A stretch of 64,000 nucleotides of DNA from an uncultured SAR116 cluster alpha proteobacterium (lineage in GTDB: Bacteria > Pseudomonadota > Alphaproteobacteria > Puniceispirillales > Marisalimonadaceae): the NCBI GenBank assembly GCA_902528415.1, contig CABZSR010000002.1, positions 1 to 64,000 of the forward strand, given 5' to 3'. Each line of letters starts with the position of its first letter. Positions within the stretch are counted from its first letter, which is position 1. Positions 6,901 through 32,046 of this stretch are shown in pieces. Under the pieces are notes generated by a model. It was not told the DNA's origin. It searched no databases and worked only from the letters and a program-made list of their open reading frames with translations. A program made the position numbers and the translations under genes.

Positions 6901-8611
6901 CAAGCCAGGAGAAGGTGGCCAGCTTCCAGGTGGTAAAGTTGACGAATTTATTGCTAAGATTAGGCATTCAACTCCTGGTGTTGGTTTAATATCTCCTCCA
7001 CCTCATCACGATATATATTCTATAGAAGATTTAGCGCAACTTATTCATGATTTAAAAAATGTTAACCCAAAAGCTAGAGTGTCTGTTAAACTTGTGTCTG
7101 AAATTGGGGTTGGGACTGTCGCTGCGGGAGTAAGTAAGGCATATGCAGATCATGTTACAATTTCAGGAAATGACGGAGGTACTGGAGCAAGTCCAATTAC
7201 TTCATTATTAAATGCTGGGGGACCTTGGGAGACAGGCTTAGCAGAAACACATCAAACACTGGTAATGAACGGTTTAAGAGAAAGAATAGCTGTGCAGGTT
7301 GATGGTGGATTACGAACAGGTAGAGATGTAGTAATAGGAGCAATGTTAGGTGCTGACGAGTTTGGTTTTGCTACTGCAGCATTAATCTCAGAAGGATGTA
7401 TAATGATGAGAAAATGTCATTTAAACACCTGTCCAGTCGGCGTTGCAACTCAAGATCCCAAATTAAGGAAAAACTTTACAGGTCAACCTGATCATGTTGT
7501 TAATTTTTTTGTTTTTATAGCTAACGAAGTTAGAGAAATAATGGCACAACTAGGTATTAAAAACTTTAATGATTTGATTGGTAGAAGGGATTTGCTTGAT
7601 TTTCATCGTGCAGAAGAACATTGGAAAGCACATGGACTTGATTTAGCGCGACTAATTGTTCCTTTGACAAAAGAAAATAACCAGAGTTTCTTCAATTCAC
7701 AAAAACAAGACCATAGATTAGAACTCGCACTTGATAATTTGTTGATTTCAAAATCACATGATGCCATATTAAACAAAAATAAGGTTAACTTTAAATCAAA
7801 AATTGTCAACACAAACAGAACAGTTGGTGGAATGCTGTCAGGTGTAATTGCCAAAAAATATGGCCATAACGGCTTACCTAATGATACAATAAAAATAAAT
7901 TTTTCTGGTAATGCTGGGCAAAGCTTTGGTGCTTGGCTAGCTAGAGGTGTTTCCTTTAATCTGGAAGGAGATGCTAACGATTATGTTGGTAAAGGTTTAT
8001 CGGGAGGAAGGATATCAATTCATCCACAAGAAAATAGTTCAATTATTGCTCAAGACAATATTATCGCAGGAAATACACTCTTGTATGGAGCTATTTCTGG
8101 AGAATGTTACTTGAGTGGTATTGTAGGTGAACGTTTTGCCGTAAGAAATTCAGGAGCGACGACTGTTGTTGAAGGTTGTGGTGATCACGGCTGTGAATAT
8201 ATGACAGGTGGTGTAGTTATTGTTTTAGGAAAAACAGGTAGAAATTTTGCAGCAGGAATGTCTGGTGGTATTGCATACATTCTTGATGAGGATAACACTT
8301 TTGAAGCCAATTGTAATAAGTCCATGGTTGAATTAGAAAAAGTTTCTAGTTTTGAAGGTTCTGAACATAATTCTGTAGAAAACATAAATAGTGATTTGTT
8401 AGACTTCGATGAAGCCCGATTAAAATTAATAATACAAAAGCATTTTAAGTTCACTAAAAGTAAAAAAGCTAAAATTATTTTAGATAACTGGAATAAATAT
8501 ATTAGTCTTTTTCATAAAATTACTCCCTTTGATTTTAAAAGAGCATTAATTGAAAGAAAAGAAAAATTAAATACAAAAAATAATACACCCAATAGAATTG
8601 CTGGAGAATAA
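3977..8611 (+). CDS. gltB: Glutamate synthase large subunit
   Basis: Large subunit of NADPH-dependent glutamate synthase, which transfers the amide nitrogen of glutamine to 2-oxoglutarate. The 1544 aa show the expected order: a short propeptide, then catalytic Cys27 (CGFGFIAN) of the class II amidotransferase domain (to about 430), a central domain, the FMN domain (about 830-1200) with the 3Fe-4S cysteines in CHLNTCPVG, and the C-terminal glycine-rich beta-helix. AAGGAT precedes the chosen ATG by about 7 nt. A weak promoter-like pair TTTACA(17)TATGTT lies at 3869-3897 and overlaps the palindrome TACAATTGTA. It forms an operon with gltD. Confidence 0.97.
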
Positions 8612-26347: not shown

Positions 26348-26423
26348 GCCCGGGTAGCTCAGTAGGTAGAGCAGAGGACTGAAAATCCTCGTGTCGGTGG
26401 TTCGAATCCGCCCCCGGGCACCA
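26348..26423 (+). tRNA. tRNA-Phe (anticodon GAA)
   Basis: Complete cloverleaf: acceptor GCCCGGG/CCCGGGC, D arm GCTC..GAGC, anticodon stem GAGGA/TCCTC around loop CTGAAAA (anticodon GAA), T arm with GGTTCGAATCC and encoded CCA. It follows yacG, as in other alphaproteobacteria. Its 3' half is duplicated at 30980-31036, which marks it as an integration target. Confidence 0.97.
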
Positions 26424-26888
26424 CGTTTTTCTACATCAGACTTCAATAAACTGTTAATCACACCCTTAAGTTAATACACTATTATCTCAATTTATAGCTG
26501 ATTTGTCAAATAATTGTGACTGTGGTGTGACCGAGTTAAAATATTGTTTAAGTTGTTGTTAAGTAAATTCAATAACTTAAAAAAAAAGTTAAATAAATTC
26601 TAAATCGGGCCTTTTCTGTCGACTCTTGAACTAATATGTTATTTATATTTGGTGAATGCACATCGCTGCCATACGAGCGTAATCAGTATGCAACAACTTC
26701 AATTTACATCATAGAAGTTAAAACTCATCTTGAAAAATCGATGTCTATTTTTTAATATAATTGTATTTTAAATTTAAACATCAATTCAAGAGATAGCTAT
26801 CAAGGGAATGAAAATATTATATACTTTTTAAATTCAAAAGACTGATTAAATATACTGCCAATTCCCAAAATAAAAATTAATTTCGATT
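26424..26888. other. 465-bp noncoding left end of tRNA-Phe island
   Basis: No gene is visible. The stretch runs from the tRNA 3' end to the end of the DUF1501 gene. It contains TGTGACTGTGGTGTGAC at 26515-26531, a word with a counterpart at the other end of the island, several A/T tracts and a somewhat G+C-richer patch at 26605-26700. TACATCAGA at 26432-26440 is the inverse of TCTGATGTA at 26315-26323 in front of the tRNA. Confidence 0.5.
26515..26531 (+). repeat. Left copy of TGTGAC-N4-GTGTGAC motif
   Basis: TGTGAC TGTG GTGTGAC, 91 nt inside the tRNA-Phe 3' end. The right copy at 30910-30926 has the same orientation and spacing. Further downstream both copies share an imperfect TTGTTAAGT-containing tail. 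Confidence 0.5.
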
Positions 26889-28055
26889 TTAAGAAATGAG
26901 AGATCTAAGTCGTTTATCAGAAAAAGTTTGCCATTCATTATTTTTCTGATTTAGCCAGGAAGAACAAATATGCTCATAAACTGATCTATAGTCCATCGTA
27001 TAGACAAGGTCACCATCCTCGAGTTTATCAAGACTAGGATAATCTCCATAAAGTCCGGCATTAACCTTCCCTCCCATCACAAACTGAACTGACGCAGCTC
27101 CATGATCCGTTCCCTGAGCACCATTTTCAGCAACACGCCTGCCAAATTCTGAATAGGTCATTACCAGAACATCATCCCACCGCCCCATATTTATCAAATT
27201 TTTTCGAAATGATGCTAGTCCTTTCGTCAGTTCAGATAACAACTGTGGATGTTGCCATTTTTGTCCTTCATGTGTGTCAAACGAGCCATGCTGTACGTGC
27301 ATAACTGGAATAGCTGTTTCAGAACCAATAACGCGCAGGACATCAGTCAATTGTGCTGAAAAGTTTCCATAAGGCATTCTAGTAGGTAATTTTGAAGCTG
27401 GAAAATAGGATAATTTTTTACTGATTTGTTGGGAGGCAAATGAGAGATCTGCCTTATTTTTAATAATTTTTTTCATTAATGCATTCATTGATGTTTGACT
27501 ATTTGACGCATTGTGACCGTAAAGCTGATTCAAACGCGCCATACTGATATAAACACCTGAACCACGAGCAAAAAGACCAAGAGATCCCTCTAGACTTGCG
27601 CCATGAGCTACAACCTGATCGTTAGAATAGCGTTTCTCAAGTGAATTAGTTAGCCATCCAGCAGTTTTAGAGTTTTGACCATCTCCTCCAGTTTCCCAGA
27701 TTGCAATTGACTTAAAATGAGATCGATTTTGCCCTGGATAACCTACACCCTGAATTATGGCTAAATCCTGATTAATTGACTTATCAAGTAAAGACATAGT
27801 ATCTGCTAAGCCTACTCGTCCAACAAGAGGGCTATTACCAACGTCAATAATTTTATTTTTTTTAAGGTGTAAATTTGGACGAAGTTTTTGATAATTATCA
27901 GTTTCATAAGGCACTAAAGTATTAATACCATCATTCGCACCTTTAAGTTCCACTAAAATCAGATATTTATTTGGTATGCCTGATGCCCAACTGAGTGAGG
28001 GATTCATAGCTATCATTGCCATCCATGATAAGAAGTTACGTTTTGAGATATCCAT
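26889..28055 (-). CDS. DUF1501 family secreted protein
   Basis: DUF1501 proteins belong to the alkaline-phosphatase/sulfatase superfamily, are usually exported and almost always pair with a DUF1800 gene; their biochemical role is not established. This 388-aa copy has an N-terminal signal-like segment (KRNFLSWMAMIAMNP, only one Arg of a twin-Arg motif), LVELKGANDGINTLVPY, SFDTHEGQ, YSEFGRR and GTDHGAA, all family hallmarks including the TDHG metal-site motif. I start at the second ATG because GAGGA, lying over the DUF1800 stop, is 7 nt upstream of it. It is co-transcribed and coupled with the DUF1800 gene and lies on the tRNA-Phe island. Confidence 0.9.
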   Translation of the reverse strand: MDISKRNFLSWMAMIAMNPSLSWASGIPNKYLILVELKGANDGINTLVPYETDNYQKLRPNLHLKKNKIIDVGNSPLVGRVGLADTMSLLDKSINQDLAIIQGVGYPGQNRSHFKSIAIWETGGDGQNSKTAGWLTNSLEKRYSNDQVVAHGASLEGSLGLFARGSGVYISMARLNQLYGHNASNSQTSMNALMKKIIKNKADLSFASQQISKKLSYFPASKLPTRMPYGNFSAQLTDVLRVIGSETAIPVMHVQHGSFDTHEGQKWQHPQLLSELTKGLASFRKNLINMGRWDDVLVMTYSEFGRRVAENGAQGTDHGAASVQFVMGGKVNAGLYGDYPSLDKLEDGDLVYTMDYRSVYEHICSSWLNQKNNEWQTFSDKRLRSLIS

Positions 28056-28064
28056 CATTTATCC

Positions 28065-30749
28065 TCATTTAATATTCACGTAAGGACTCATTATTACTTC
28101 TCGCAAATCAGTAAGTCGTGGCCCCTCATAATGGCTCAACATCCAACTTTCTAGGGGCTCTGAAGCAAGTGTTAGGTAAGTTTCAAGTTTTTCATGCCAT
28201 TCGTCAACTAATAAGGCCTTACCTGAAGCAATAATATATTTTTTATCTTCTAGCATTTTATTTGACATCATTGATTGCAAATCAGTTATTATTTTAGTTT
28301 GATCTAAGTTTGTAAAATGCCTTTCAAATAATCCATAGGTAATGTTTGGCTTCCAACGCTTCATTTTAGCAAACTTCTCAAACTCATTCATTCTTTCTAT
28401 CCAAATCTTTTTTGAATTAGGTTCACGATGTGCAAGTGTATTTGCAACTAATCTTCTGATTTTAGGCATCGTAGATATTATTGATTTGACGAGTTCTTTA
28501 TCAACATTTTTAAGTCTTTGATATTGTCTTAACGCCCAGTCTTCAGATTTATTGAATGAAACAATACTATGCCGCAGACCTAATTTATCTTTCCACGCTT
28601 CAAATGGCCAGCTAACAAAACAACTTGGCTTACAGCGGTCCTCATCAAACGACAGGTGAAAATGGTTACTATTTTTAGTATCTAACACCACCTTAAATCC
28701 AAAATAATCCCAATAGCGATCTTTGAATGATAATCCATCAAACATAAGGTCAATGGATTGCCACCCACCTTTACTAGGCGGGCTAAGCCAAAGAAGAACA
28801 AGTTCTTTTGTTTCAAATTCACTTTTCTGCTTAATTTTTTCTTGTTCTTGGACAAACTGCTTTATAATTTTTTTCCAATGCAGAGTTAGTTCACCCATAC
28901 AGTATAGTCTATCAGGGTGTCTCTCTGCTCCTCCACTATCACTGCGACATCCAGGATTTTGTATTCCCATAGAGCCCGGAAGTGTTATCCCTTGCCATTC
29001 CACGGCGCCAATAAATAGATTCCTATCACCGCCATTGCCTGCAGCATCGGCTGTAAAACGAATAGTTATCTCCTCCACCTCATTAACTTCATTGGGCACC
29101 TCTAGAGAAATTGTTTCCCAGACCCACTGACTTTCATCTTTATATCTCCCTAGTCGTTCTGTATCCCGCGCTGAATTAAGGTAATTAATTTTTGAAAACC
29201 ACTCACCTCCAGAATGCTTTATGGACAAGCGATATGGAGGAGCCCCTTGATAGGCTTCACCAGCTAATTTAAGTTTTATTTTTTTTTGCGCTCTTTTATT
29301 CAACATTCTATTGTTAACAATATTTTTCATACTATTTTCAGCCATGAATTCTTTATTTAAAGTTCGAAAAAGGAGTTTTTGGAATTGTTCCCTTTCTATA
29401 AGCTTGGCAGCATCTATCCAATAATCACCATAGCCCCATCCGCTAACATCTGGTGGATCAAACAGTCTCTGCCCCATATCAGCAAGGCTTGCATCAAGCA
29501 CTGAGACTGGTATTTCATTATTTTGGGAAACTCTAACCATACCTACCAATAATTCGGATGGCGCTTTCACAGATGTTCCTCGGTATTTATCATCCCAGAA
29601 ATAAGAAGAATTCAGAATAACTGTAAGTAATTCAGAAATTTCATAATTGGTTTTTCTAAATGCATCACTCCAGTATAAAAGGGTATGTTTAGGGATAGGC
29701 TCTAATGAAATAAACTCAGTCCAAAGCTTGTTAACAACAAATTCCGATGCTTTAGGATGTTTTAAGATTAGCTCAATAAGCTGTTCTCCATCAAATCTTT
29801 TTTGAACACCAAATATTTTTTTCTTATCAAAATCACGTGCCCATGCTTTTTCTAAAAAACTAATTTTACCAAACTCTGATACGTGCCAGCCAGCAAGGGC
29901 TCTTGCTGCTTCTTTTATATCTTTTTCAGAATAATTTCCTTCTCCAAGAGTGAATAGTTCAAAAAGTTCACGGGCCAAATTTTCGTTTGGTGATACTCGT
30001 TTGTTTCTATTGTTATCCAAATAGATCAATATGGCAGGATCTTTTATCATGGAATGAAGAAGCTCACGATAATTTCCAAAGGCATATTTTCTAATAGATT
30101 TGTGGTGCATCCATTGTGCATGAGACTTTTCATCTAATCCACTAAACGCAGCTACAAAAGTATTTTCCCAGAATAATACCAGACGTTCAGCTAGTGGACT
30201 ATTTGTGGCTAGCATCTGTTTGATCCACCATTGTCGAAGTTCGGCTATCTCCTGTTTTCGAGCACTTTTAAATGCGTTACGCTTGTTTGATGGCCAATCA
30301 TTGTGTCCCCAATATCGTGGTTCAAGTTTTGTCCATTTTGGATAATCATTCACAGGATTAGTATCAAGTTCTGCAATTAAATTTGTAATTAGAATTGATC
30401 TATTTTTCCCAATCCATTTGGAAACGTCAGAAGGAGAGGGTTCAAAGCCAATTTTTCTGAGAATGTAAGATACTTCGGAAGCTGACATAGGTTTATTCAA
30501 TACCTGAGGCATAGAACTTGTTGCCATCCATTCAGCAGCTGTAAGAGTTGAAAAAGCACTTTTAGGAAGCAATGAGACTGAATTAGTTTTACTATTATCT
30601 TTGTAATTATTTTTGAAATTATTTCCTGAATTTCCTGGCGTATTTTCGAAATTAGTCTTTTTATTTTTAAAAGTGGTAGCATTATTGCAAGCACTCATAA
30701 GCAATCCGAATGCTAAAACGATAATAATCATTTTAAATATAAATTTCAT
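28065..30749 (-). CDS. DUF1800 lipoprotein with CBM60-like insert
   Basis: An 894-aa protein with a lipoprotein-type signal peptide (cleavage before Cys21 in LLMSAC), a low-complexity Asn/Lys linker (22-60) and a DUF1800 domain (about 88-465) with the hallmark NENLARELFELFTLG and AARALAGW. Residues about 490-590 look like a calcium-dependent xylan-binding (CBM60) module: ITIRFTADAAGNGGDRNLF carries the DRNL core. A further 300 residues are not recognised. Ordinary DUF1800 proteins are about 450-600 aa, so the C-terminal half is an addition. The gene precedes and couples to DUF1501. An envelope-anchored, glycan-binding partner of DUF1501 is my inference. Confidence 0.87.
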   Translation of the reverse strand: MKFIFKMIIIVLAFGLLMSACNNATTFKNKKTNFENTPGNSGNNFKNNYKDNSKTNSVSLLPKSAFSTLTAAEWMATSSMPQVLNKPMSASEVSYILRKIGFEPSPSDVSKWIGKNRSILITNLIAELDTNPVNDYPKWTKLEPRYWGHNDWPSNKRNAFKSARKQEIAELRQWWIKQMLATNSPLAERLVLFWENTFVAAFSGLDEKSHAQWMHHKSIRKYAFGNYRELLHSMIKDPAILIYLDNNRNKRVSPNENLARELFELFTLGEGNYSEKDIKEAARALAGWHVSEFGKISFLEKAWARDFDKKKIFGVQKRFDGEQLIELILKHPKASEFVVNKLWTEFISLEPIPKHTLLYWSDAFRKTNYEISELLTVILNSSYFWDDKYRGTSVKAPSELLVGMVRVSQNNEIPVSVLDASLADMGQRLFDPPDVSGWGYGDYWIDAAKLIEREQFQKLLFRTLNKEFMAENSMKNIVNNRMLNKRAQKKIKLKLAGEAYQGAPPYRLSIKHSGGEWFSKINYLNSARDTERLGRYKDESQWVWETISLEVPNEVNEVEEITIRFTADAAGNGGDRNLFIGAVEWQGITLPGSMGIQNPGCRSDSGGAERHPDRLYCMGELTLHWKKIIKQFVQEQEKIKQKSEFETKELVLLWLSPPSKGGWQSIDLMFDGLSFKDRYWDYFGFKVVLDTKNSNHFHLSFDEDRCKPSCFVSWPFEAWKDKLGLRHSIVSFNKSEDWALRQYQRLKNVDKELVKSIISTMPKIRRLVANTLAHREPNSKKIWIERMNEFEKFAKMKRWKPNITYGLFERHFTNLDQTKIITDLQSMMSNKMLEDKKYIIASGKALLVDEWHEKLETYLTLASEPLESWMLSHYEGPRLTDLREVIMSPYVNIK

Positions 30750-30903
30750 ATTATTAAGTTAACTATTAAAAACTCGTATGTGAAGGTAATTATTAATTTA
30801 AATAAAAGGAAGAAACATTGATTTTGATATAGATTCTATTTTTATATTTCTTACTTAAGCTTGCTAAAGTCTATTTCTTTTCCTAGATGTCGCCATTTTA
30901 CAT

Positions 30904-30920
30904 CCTCCGTGTGACGGAGG
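30904..30920. repeat. Perfect 7-bp inverted repeat with GTG loop
   Basis: CCTCCGT (30904-30910), GTG, ACGGAGG (30914-30920). A tight G+C-rich hairpin in A/T-rich noncoding DNA, overlapping the right TGTGAC motif. There is no T-tract on either side, so it is not a usual terminator; it could be a recombinase- or regulator-binding site. Confidence 0.45.
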
Positions 30921-30926
30921 TGTGAC
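30910..30926 (+). repeat. Right copy of TGTGAC-N4-GTGTGAC motif
   Basis: TGTGAC GGAG GTGTGAC, ending 53 nt before the tRNA-Phe fragment; matches the left copy (26515-26531) in orientation and internal spacing. Confidence 0.5.
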
Positions 30927-30979
30927 GATGGTAATATAGTTTTTGTTAAGTCTTTGATATGCCTACGTAGATTTGTACA

Positions 30980-31036
30980 AGAGCAGAGGACTGAAAATCC
31001 TCGTGTTTAGGTGGTTCGAATCCGCCCCCGGGCACC
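30980..31036 (+). repeat. tRNA-Phe 3'-half duplication (putative attR)
   Basis: 27 bases identical to the D-arm/anticodon part of tRNA-Phe (from AGAGCAGAGG to TCGTGT), then TTA in place of C in the variable loop, then 27 bases identical to the T arm and acceptor end up to GGGCACC. The 5' part before 30980 no longer pairs with the acceptor strand, so it cannot give a functional tRNA. It matches 26368-26422. Confidence 0.85.
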
Positions 31037-31285
31037 CCGCACCCAAAATTAATTATCAGTATATGTCGAATTAACCACATTGATTAACATCTAAAAAACA
31101 TAAATTCATACTTTAATTCAAAGAAACTGTTATAGGTTGCGAAAAACTAACGATTGTTTATACAATTATTTAATTAAATCATAACTCATAAAACACTCAT
31201 TTCTATTTATAGAAATTTCTTGATAATTGACCAAATCATAGTGTTTATTTACGATTATACTACTAACAATTAAATAGGAATATTG

Positions 31286-31693
31286 ATGAAACATAAATTA
31301 AAACATTTTATTGCAACTCATACATTTCACTCTACGAAATCAAAAAAGGATTTTTTTTCTCTAGTAAAACATAGAAAAACTAATTCAGATTGGTTTGGAA
31401 ATGAAACTACAGAAATGAAAGAAAATTTTTTTAAGTTGTTAAAAAGTAGAAATTTACTTGATGATTATAATATTACTGAGAAAAATAGTGATGATTATGC
31501 ACTCCTTTTACAATTATTCATAGGTCGTGGTGAATTCTTTTTTTGTCATTGGTATGCAATTGACGAACAAACTATTAATGATAGGCTTAGTGTGACTAGT
31601 GGAGAAAAATTTTTCATTACTATGGCAACACAAGTAGATGGTCCTAAAATATATGTAGATAAACTGACAAAATATATGAAAAAGCTACAGTAA
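31286..31693 (+). CDS. Unknown small protein (135 aa)
   Basis: Not recognised. The frame starts at ATG 31286 with AGGAA about 6 nt upstream; a TTG at 31283 is less likely. The protein alternates short strands and helices (KHFIATHTFHS; FFFCHWYAIDEQTINDRL; KFFITMATQVDG), which suggests a small ferredoxin-like alpha/beta fold of the kind seen in DUF4242- or monooxygenase-like proteins. That is a guess from pattern only. It has no signal peptide and no membrane segment. It lies just beyond the tRNA fragment and before a decayed DUF1501 gene, so it may be accessory DNA. Confidence 0.6.
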   Translation: MKHKLKHFIATHTFHSTKSKKDFFSLVKHRKTNSDWFGNETTEMKENFFKLLKSRNLLDDYNITEKNSDDYALLLQLFIGRGEFFFCHWYAIDEQTINDRLSVTSGEKFFITMATQVDGPKIYVDKLTKYMKKLQ

Positions 31694-31710: not shown

Positions 31711-32046
31711 GTGTTTGAAATTTTTGGTTTTGATACTCAAGCTGCACAAGTTGGAGCTGATGGAGAATATGGACAAAAGTTAAAAATTTTGGATGACATT
31801 TTTAAAGTTTTAAAAAAACAACTTGGTAAAACTTTTGATGACATCTCAATACTTACTCTCACTGAATTTGGAAGAACAATCGTGAAAAACATTGGCTATG
31901 GAACTGCAGTTTTACTGGGTGGAGGTTTGTTAAAAAAAAATCATGTTTTTACTGATTGGCCTTGTATTAAGAAAAAAGAATTATTCGAAGGAAGTGACTT
32001 AAATTCTACTTTAGATGCTAGATCAGTTTATTGTTCTGCAATGTAA
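31711..32046 (+). pseudogene. DUF1501 C-terminal remnant
   Basis: 111 codons matching only the last third of a DUF1501 protein: FGFDTQAAQVG, LTLTEFGRT, TDWPCIKKKELFEGSDL, STLDARSVY. The N-terminal two thirds are absent and the family's GTDHG metal-site motif has been lost by a short deletion (GYGTAVLLGGG). The only start is a GTG without a ribosome-binding site. The wording is closer to the standard alphaproteobacterial DUF1501 (FDTHAAQ, DWPGL, LYEGRDL, TTDLRAV) than to the intact gene at 26889, so it is the relic of a different DUF1501 gene. Confidence 0.75.

Follow-up and report, generated by a model that had tools for sequence, protein, structure and literature searches.

A DUF1501/DUF1800 operon in a tRNA-Phe island of a SAR116 cluster bacterium, probably held between the ends of an integrase-alpA-primase element

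How a two-gene operon came to lie between a tRNA-Phe gene and a copy of the 3' half of that tRNA, with no intact recombinase beside it, is the question raised by a 4.6-kb segment in the genome of an uncultured SAR116 cluster alphaproteobacterium. The stretch analysed, referred to as the window, comprises 64,000 nt (GenBank assembly GCA_902528415.1, contig CABZSR010000002.1, positions 1 to 64,000). A preliminary description had seen in the segment a tRNA-integrated element reduced to a DUF1501/DUF1800 cargo. This fits the comparisons made here. The tRNA island is genuine and site-specific, and it is related, in degraded form, to elements that encode an integrase, AlpA and a primase, its likely source. 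Two features are unusual: common ends enclose cargo that is exchangeable, and the DUF1501-DUF1800 pair recurs. The island and its bounding tRNA sequences are composed as follows.

26348..26423, plus strand: tRNA-Phe(gaa), the integration site (attL side), identified with ARAGORN
26424..26545, plus strand: left end with TTGTGAC (26514) and GGTGTGAC (26524) repeats, candidate arm sites for a recombinase or excisionase
26546..26755, plus strand: rest of the left shell, aligning with homologous DNA directly upstream of alpA in genomes G035 and G029
26889..28058, minus strand: DUF1501 gene, 389 aa, with a twin-arginine-like start (KR), alkaline-phosphatase-superfamily-like (Pfam E 9e-32)
28065..30749, minus strand: DUF1800 gene, 894 aa, with a hydrophobic N-terminus, partner of the DUF1501 gene (Pfam E 4e-87)
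30810..30896, minus strand: tyrosine integrase relic, codons 1-29, with two in-frame stops (tblastn, DNA identity)
30897..30979, plus strand: right end with GTGTGAC at 30909 and 30920 (sequence comparison)
30980..31036, plus strand: displaced tRNA-Phe 3' half (tRNA positions 21-75), attR side, with TTA in place of C (sequence comparison)

The 57-base distal copy is 95% identical to the 3' part of tRNA-Phe, lies 4.6 kb downstream of it in the same orientation, and is the second-best match to tRNA-Phe in the whole genome of the window organism (58 contigs, 73% complete; E 5e-19). Alignment confirmed the repeat and its TTA as first described; a direct repeat of the tRNA 3' part thus marks both edges, as in tRNA-targeted islands. 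Between them lie the DUF1501 and DUF1800 genes, both on the minus strand, and both pass the curated Pfam cut-offs (DUF1501, PF07394, 111.2 vs 27 bits; DUF1800, PF08811, 293.5 vs 26.1 bits). The higher G+C content attributed to the island holds against its immediate surroundings (0.33-0.39 within the island vs 0.27-0.30 within ~1.5 kb on either side) but not against the core genes at 32.5-35 kb, which reach 0.35-0.38, so that base composition is weak evidence for an island.

The insertion itself is documented by empty sites. In genomes G001, G016 and G022, an intact tRNA-Phe is followed directly by sequence equivalent to that right of 31036. The window flanks, joined across the island, align continuously with all three genomes; the tRNA is identical and the sequence beyond it clearly homologous. 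The segment is therefore a site-specific insertion at tRNA-Phe. Integration, for which the preliminary description had proposed this comparison, is thereby borne out, and neither of the two outcomes it had named as contradicting it occurred: three relatives are without the segment, and what recurs distally is the 3' half of a tRNA instead of a full second one. The idea that this copy is a second, decaying tRNA-Phe was rejected, since it covers positions 21-75 only and relatives have empty sites; with the E value given above, a chance match fares no better. Nothing was found in favour of either, and their probability is negligible.

The right end of the island holds a trace of the lost mobility gene. 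Read from 30896 on the minus strand, it gives MATSRKRNRL, a stop, QA, a stop and VRN, and continues to codon 29. It matches the integrase of G033 (query residues 1-40) with a tblastn E value of 1.5e-11 within 2 kb, and the DNA of the relic region is 91% identical over 116 bp to the right end of the G033 integrase and 82% over 121 bp to an integrase gene on contig C37 of the window's own genome. Of these two full-length proteins, that of C37 starts with (V/M)ASFRKRNNLWQAQVRNRKIG, and that of G033 (C30) has MASFRKRNGLWQVQVRNRKIG after an 11-residue extension. These alignments identify the right end of the island as the 5' portion of a tyrosine integrase gene. The earlier statement that no recombinase and no visible mobility gene are present stands as far as an intact integrase is concerned; it does not hold for the 5' relic (30896-30810) and the element ends, which remain. 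Where a tRNA-targeted island would typically carry an integrase gene, this one has only 29 codons of it.

Truncated integrases are found in other tRNA-Phe elements as well, with codons 1-30 or 31 (G023, G011, G014), codons 1-14 plus 282-318 (G012) or ~6-7 codons (G036, G063). G044, which belongs to a different family of the order, has a full integrase directly adjoining the tRNA-Phe fragment. A profile search over 34 stretches recovered full integrases only there and in G032, where the enzyme is of another type, in addition to the G012 remnant.

The island shares its ends with other elements. The 120 bp following tRNA-Phe or a fragment of it were compared with the window in 28 cases, with shuffled sequences as control (0.33 +/- 0.09, maximum 0.45). 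Identity is 0.67-0.87 in 12 cases and 0.58-0.59 in three more. Further inward, it exceeds 0.46 in three of the 12 matching cases, namely G035 (0.79, 0.76), G023 (0.66) and G009 (0.59). Among the right 120 bp, seven of ten others are 0.68-0.89 identical to the window. The matching ends enclose cargo other than that of the window. Within the window, GGTGTGAC is found twice on the plus strand, once per end (26524, 30919), and never on the minus strand. Its position, with that of the other end repeats, suggests arm-type sites for integrase and AlpA.

The parent of these ends can be read from relatives. In G029, the matching left DNA leads into a 69-aa AlpA-like gene (Pfam AlpA E 9e-6) and then into a primase cut at 491 aa by the contig end; in G035, it leads into an alpA match (90% identical) and a 755-aa primase. 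Both genes also occur at tRNA-Phe in G020 and in G033, where the primase homologue (754 aa) has Prim-Pol, PriCT_2, D5_N and DUF5906 domains (Pfam) and the integrase is on a separate contig. G044 carries tRNA-Phe, an AlpA-like gene and a DUF5906 primase, with the integrase and the tRNA fragment 34 kb away on the same contig. As the ends of the window island match such relatives, the island very probably is the shell of a satellite-like integrase-alpA-primase element that retains the ends and now holds the DUF1501-DUF1800 operon.

Pieced together from relatives, the parent would have had left arm sites, alpA, a DUF5906-type primase-polymerase, cargo, an inward-reading tyrosine integrase, right arm sites and the tRNA-Phe 3' half, in this order. 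It would have entered site-specifically at the tRNA-Phe 3' half, with a crossover presumably in the anticodon arm and with arm repeats that may bind integrase and AlpA. In the window copy, the operon would replace everything from the stretch upstream of alpA to codon 29 of the integrase.

How the mobility genes were lost bears on whether the island can still move. A complete element with DUF1501-DUF1800 may have integrated once and, with only its cargo being of use, have shed the genes for AlpA, primase and integrase at the site; it would now be immobile, and outside integrases would be irrelevant. This explanation has a little less than an even chance. Loss of mobility genes with retention of cargo is common in genomic islands, and in-place decay is expected to leave a relic with two stops and a fragment with a TTA replacement, just as independent losses are expected to leave varying breakpoints (29, 30, 14 plus 282-318, and ~6-7 codons). 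It does not readily explain why ends are kept at 0.67-0.89 in many elements although the integrase is gone, nor why one ATP-grasp element with a single integrase-deletion junction, described below, is common to G023, G014 and G006 at a fourfold divergence below that of core genes.

Across the genus, the tRNA-Phe locus is a site of frequent insertion. The identical 76-mer tRNA-Phe is present in 26 of 37 genomes, the window's own included. In the 21 genomes (20 relatives and the window) that have both this tRNA and a phosphoglycerate-dehydrogenase-like gene (PGDH), the interval between the two ranges from 0.24 kb (G017) to 11.4 kb (G014); G011, with a stretch lacking the tRNA, was omitted, and the gene is inverted in G026. 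With relatives on shorter contigs included, the cargo at tRNA-Phe comprises TPR-methyltransferases, TPR with cytidylyltransferase, thiamine genes, a four-gene ATP-grasp/Alpha-E/transglutaminase/proteasome-like set, a sugar transporter, an ArsP permease and others. Extra tRNA-Phe halves, many beginning near position 21, lie between some of the cargos, and arrays with several fragments at one tRNA occur. Strains thus differ in the cassettes that they carry at this single position, which is the pattern of additive flexible genomic islands. Elsewhere in the order, the one-contig genome G037 (L044-L046) has a tRNA-Phe array with four further fragments across 43 kb and a DUF1800-DUF1501 pair between tRNA-Phe and the first fragment.

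In another explanation, the tRNA halves and shared ends serve only as homology for cassette exchange between strains, as in additive islands, with no recombinase required today. The multi-fragment arrays at one tRNA favour this, as does an element in G006 with the same cargo as its relatives but a different right-end integrase allele. Exchange by homologous recombination leaves the first insertions, the integrase relics and the boundaries at tRNA halves unexplained, however, and the shared ends measure only ~100 bp; this explanation is improbable.

The ATP-grasp element gives a view of movement without an integrase. Its integrase-deletion junction lies at the same place, the end of the last gene, in G023, G011, G014 and G006, and the element is the one nearest to the tRNA in G006 and G014 but the second nearest in G023. 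At fourfold degenerate sites, its four genes differ at 39/373 (G023-G006), 35/375 (G023-G014) and 45/376 (G006-G014) positions, i.e. 0.09-0.12, compared with 121/328, 84/328 and 114/331 (0.26-0.37) for maf, rne, pgdh and hpcH in the same pairs (Fisher p ~1e-8 or less). The core comparison covers these four genes only, all beside the site, and single genes come closer (G023-G014, hpcH 0.16 vs ATP-grasp gene 0.12). Since the element is less divergent than the four core genes, we conclude that the integrase-less unit was exchanged between lineages; on this evidence, integrase-less shells can spread.

The window copy may likewise have arrived without an integrase, and a co-resident relative that has the same ends may supply integrase and AlpA in trans for its excision and insertion. 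This route, too, falls just short of an even chance. In its favour, the ATP-grasp unit is common to several lineages, and full-length integrases with related arm repeats occur in G033, G003, G014, G013 and on C37 of the own genome (there with Arg to Gly). Against it, no tRNA-Phe-type integrase was recognised in the 73%-complete own genome, which has 11 phage-integrase family matches, and viral contigs did not show the right-end/tRNA pattern. The own-genome match closest to the relic is the C37 integrase (L146 746-1702), which is 84% identical to that of G033 and adjoins a fragment identical at 57/57 bases to tRNA-Met(cat) positions 21-77. It has HDLGHEA where five of five full-length relatives (G033, G003, G014, G013, G044) have HDLRHEA, the arginine of which we take to be the catalytic one of the HxxR motif; the enzyme would thus have lost it, unless the glycine is an assembly error. 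As an obvious helper, the C37 integrase was rejected on account of its tRNA-Met site and the replaced arginine. Movement in trans nevertheless has a precedent: according to excerpts of PMC10803314, excision of the satellite PICMI115 was lost on deletion of int and restored by int in trans. By analogy, mobilisation of the window island in trans is plausible, if unproven.

Several observations weigh against a shell derived from such an element and still capable of movement. The genus genomes are drafts, mostly 50-90% complete. Thirteen of the 28 left ends (0.30-0.51) do not match that of the window, and three of the ten right ends (G023a, G026, G007) are at background. Integrase, alpA and primase were not found together on one contig in the genus, the contigs of G029, G035 and G020 ending before the integrase; the alpA match of G035 starts at residue 8, with no ordinary start listed for the frame; and the window holds no recognisable remnant of alpA or primase. 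The right end in G006 (L037 6287-6440) is only 0.69-0.72 identical to the others and represents another integrase allele, despite a cargo match of 95-97%, so element ends recombine too. No copy of the window cargo was found elsewhere in the 40 genus genomes (best 34%), and the movement of the window copy is therefore not datable. Searches of viral contigs revealed no excised or phage-borne form: the integrase search returned one relative at 25% identity, and the right-end/tRNA pattern had 0 exact matches.

Further integrase-related sequences were recorded in these genomes. On C37 (L146), a lone right-end flank with the tRNA-Phe anticodon arm (positions 21-43) lies at 7087-7125, 6.4 kb from the tRNA-Met-type integrase, and may mark the breakage of a tRNA-Phe element or its former use of a secondary site; a TPR-sulfotransferase-like gene and two CysD/CysNC-like genes (named by eye) lie beside that integrase. 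The second integrase type is encoded beside tRNA-Phe in G032 (L052 2255-3406; domains DUF6538 and PF00589) and beside tRNA-Arg in G036 (L218 6662-7795), the two being 52% identical. The end of the G032 element is unlike that of the window, and G032-like ends are also present on the right side of fragments in G026 and G006. C-terminal relics of integrase genes, starting at codon 282-284, were seen at L197 6317 and 16615, L199 3558, L200 7955 and L206 7942; a shared sequence of ~60-150 bp precedes them in four genomes and constitutes a dispersed repeat.

The cargo recurs at tRNA genes. DUF1800 genes are found at 30 places in 26 of the 40 genus genomes. The tRNA-Phe locus accounts for 20 of these places; three are the tRNA-Ser, tRNA-Arg and alpA cases described below, four have no tRNA on the fetched stretch (G017, G007, G001, G034 C57), and three are unplaced (G026, G033 C39, G035 C33). 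A second pair in the own genome (385/722 aa, contig C13) has tRNA-Ser(gct) on one side and, on the other, genes for a DUF5906 protein, a RepB-type primase and AlpA, both AlpA matches of this genome being on C13; no bounding repeat could be established for this pair, the only match, of 15 bases (E 0.075), being ~20 kb away. In G013 (C28), a related pair has as neighbours an AlpA-like gene (21.2 bits, cut-off 21) and genes for a PrimPol and an AAA protein; in G036 (C15), another occurs beside an integrase at tRNA-Arg, and the tRNA-Arg repeat there runs in the opposite direction. Among the relatives found, the pair of Puniceispirillum AH-135-F23, of the same order (Puniceispirillales), comes closest to that of the window (DUF1800 69%, DUF1501 79%) and has its two genes in the same arrangement; it adjoins tRNA-Gly, with a weakly matching, decayed tRNA-Gly 3' fragment (29 bases, 83%, E 0.006) ~4.6 kb away. 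Judged by these positions, the DUF1501/DUF1800 pair is a recurrent tRNA-island cargo. DUF1800 matched one of 50,697 phage records (28% identity over 30% of the query), and 52 of 72,556 plasmid records matched, none covering 80%. Among the four papers on DUF1800 and ten on DUF1501 retrieved by full-text search, no title or opening of an abstract links the pair to tRNA islands or satellites; one of them, PMC5418858, on Pseudomonas phages, names DUF1501 once.

The twin-arginine motif is present in 10 of 11 aligned DUF1501 proteins, with KR in that of the window. Structure models of the two cargo proteins have mean pLDDT values of 51.6 and 43.8, and a fold search with the low-confidence DUF1501 model, the only one searched, returned weak matches to sulfatases, LtaS and YejM. 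Profiles of solved structures gave weak sulfatase matches for DUF1501 (E 0.2 or worse) and none for DUF1800. The window DUF1800 had no match in PADLOC, which was applied to ten proteins including it but not the window DUF1501; labels given to other cargo, in TPR or methyltransferase regions, were TPR, PrimPol, C3a198, mad2 and MTase_II. An envelope role is our guess: the exported pair might give the host an envelope-related trait on account of which the island is retained.

Two features right of the tRNA fragment belong to the resident sequence.

31283..31693, plus strand: resident orphan gene adjoining the empty site, outside the element; 96-98% in G001, G016 and G022
31711..32046, plus strand: decayed C-terminal piece of a resident DUF1501 gene, outside the element (Pfam E 7e-5, below the curated cut-off)

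The orphan gene has no Pfam match. The remnant at 31711-32046, missed in the preliminary description, is 81% identical to the intact DUF1501 gene that G016 and G013 each have in a resident DUF1800-DUF1501 pair, and is of another type than the DUF1501 of the island; its DUF1800 partner is gone. With this decayed gene right of the fragment, an older pair has left a trace in the window genome besides the incoming one, and one DUF1501/DUF1800 pair may have replaced another. A broader proposal is offered tentatively, with somewhat less than an even chance: SAR116-type bacteria would carry non-autonomous, cargo-only satellite shells, i.e. two ~100-bp integrase-alpA-primase ends around any operon, which an integrase acting in trans would insert at tRNA genes and transfer from one species to another, with the DUF1501-DUF1800 export pair as a recurrent cargo swapped as divergent alleles at the same locus.

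The route by which tRNA islands without a recombinase moved is in many cases obscure. In the present case, a 29-codon relic and ends common with integrase-alpA-primase elements allow the parent element to be named, and an integrase-less sister is common to several lineages with a divergence below that of core genes, so that two genes would suffice for a direct test of movement in trans. In addition, DUF1501-DUF1800, an operon without a known role, becomes tied to tRNA-borne, satellite-like cargo.

Among known systems, the parent element most resembles the PICMI satellites of Vibrionaceae, defined in excerpts of PMC10803314 by an integrase, alpA and a primase (DUF3987 or DUF5906), with fis. The tRNA-Phe relatives G033, G035, G029, G020 and G044 have alpA and primase, and G033 and G044, with DUF5906 and integrase, have what would be the PICMI core set, on two contigs (G033) or 34 kb apart (G044). 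Unlike PICMIs, the elements described here are at tRNA-Phe and not beside fis and have an alphaproteobacterial host, with no known helper phage; in the window copy, not one of the three genes is intact. The variety of cassettes at a single site also recalls the tRNA-anchored cassette islands with repeats of the tRNA end in PMC10872708 and the additive islands as defined in PMC6060240, again in excerpts, but here many cassettes have ~100-bp common ends, one of them an integrase relic. Such ends indicate a definite parent element. Tycheposons, which Hackl et al. are said to have described in 2023, are reportedly marine, tRNA-targeted, cargo-bearing elements with a tyrosine recombinase; going by this description, the window copy differs in being without one. 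Both PMC10872708 and PMC10803314 mention tycheposons by name. The same two-gene operon as in the window, with a twin-arginine signal in DUF1501, is linked to chitin synthase and reported as horizontally transferred in excerpts of PMC5122149; in the present case, neither the island nor its vicinity showed a chitin synthase gene, and the pair is tRNA-island cargo. CALIN arrays and MITEs (hitcher review PMC11389934, in excerpts) work alike, as cargo or DNA with ends only and a recombinase from elsewhere; their recombinase class and sites are different, and the island is not a member of either. If the broader proposal is true, cargo-only shells would be the tRNA-site counterpart of CALINs and MITEs.

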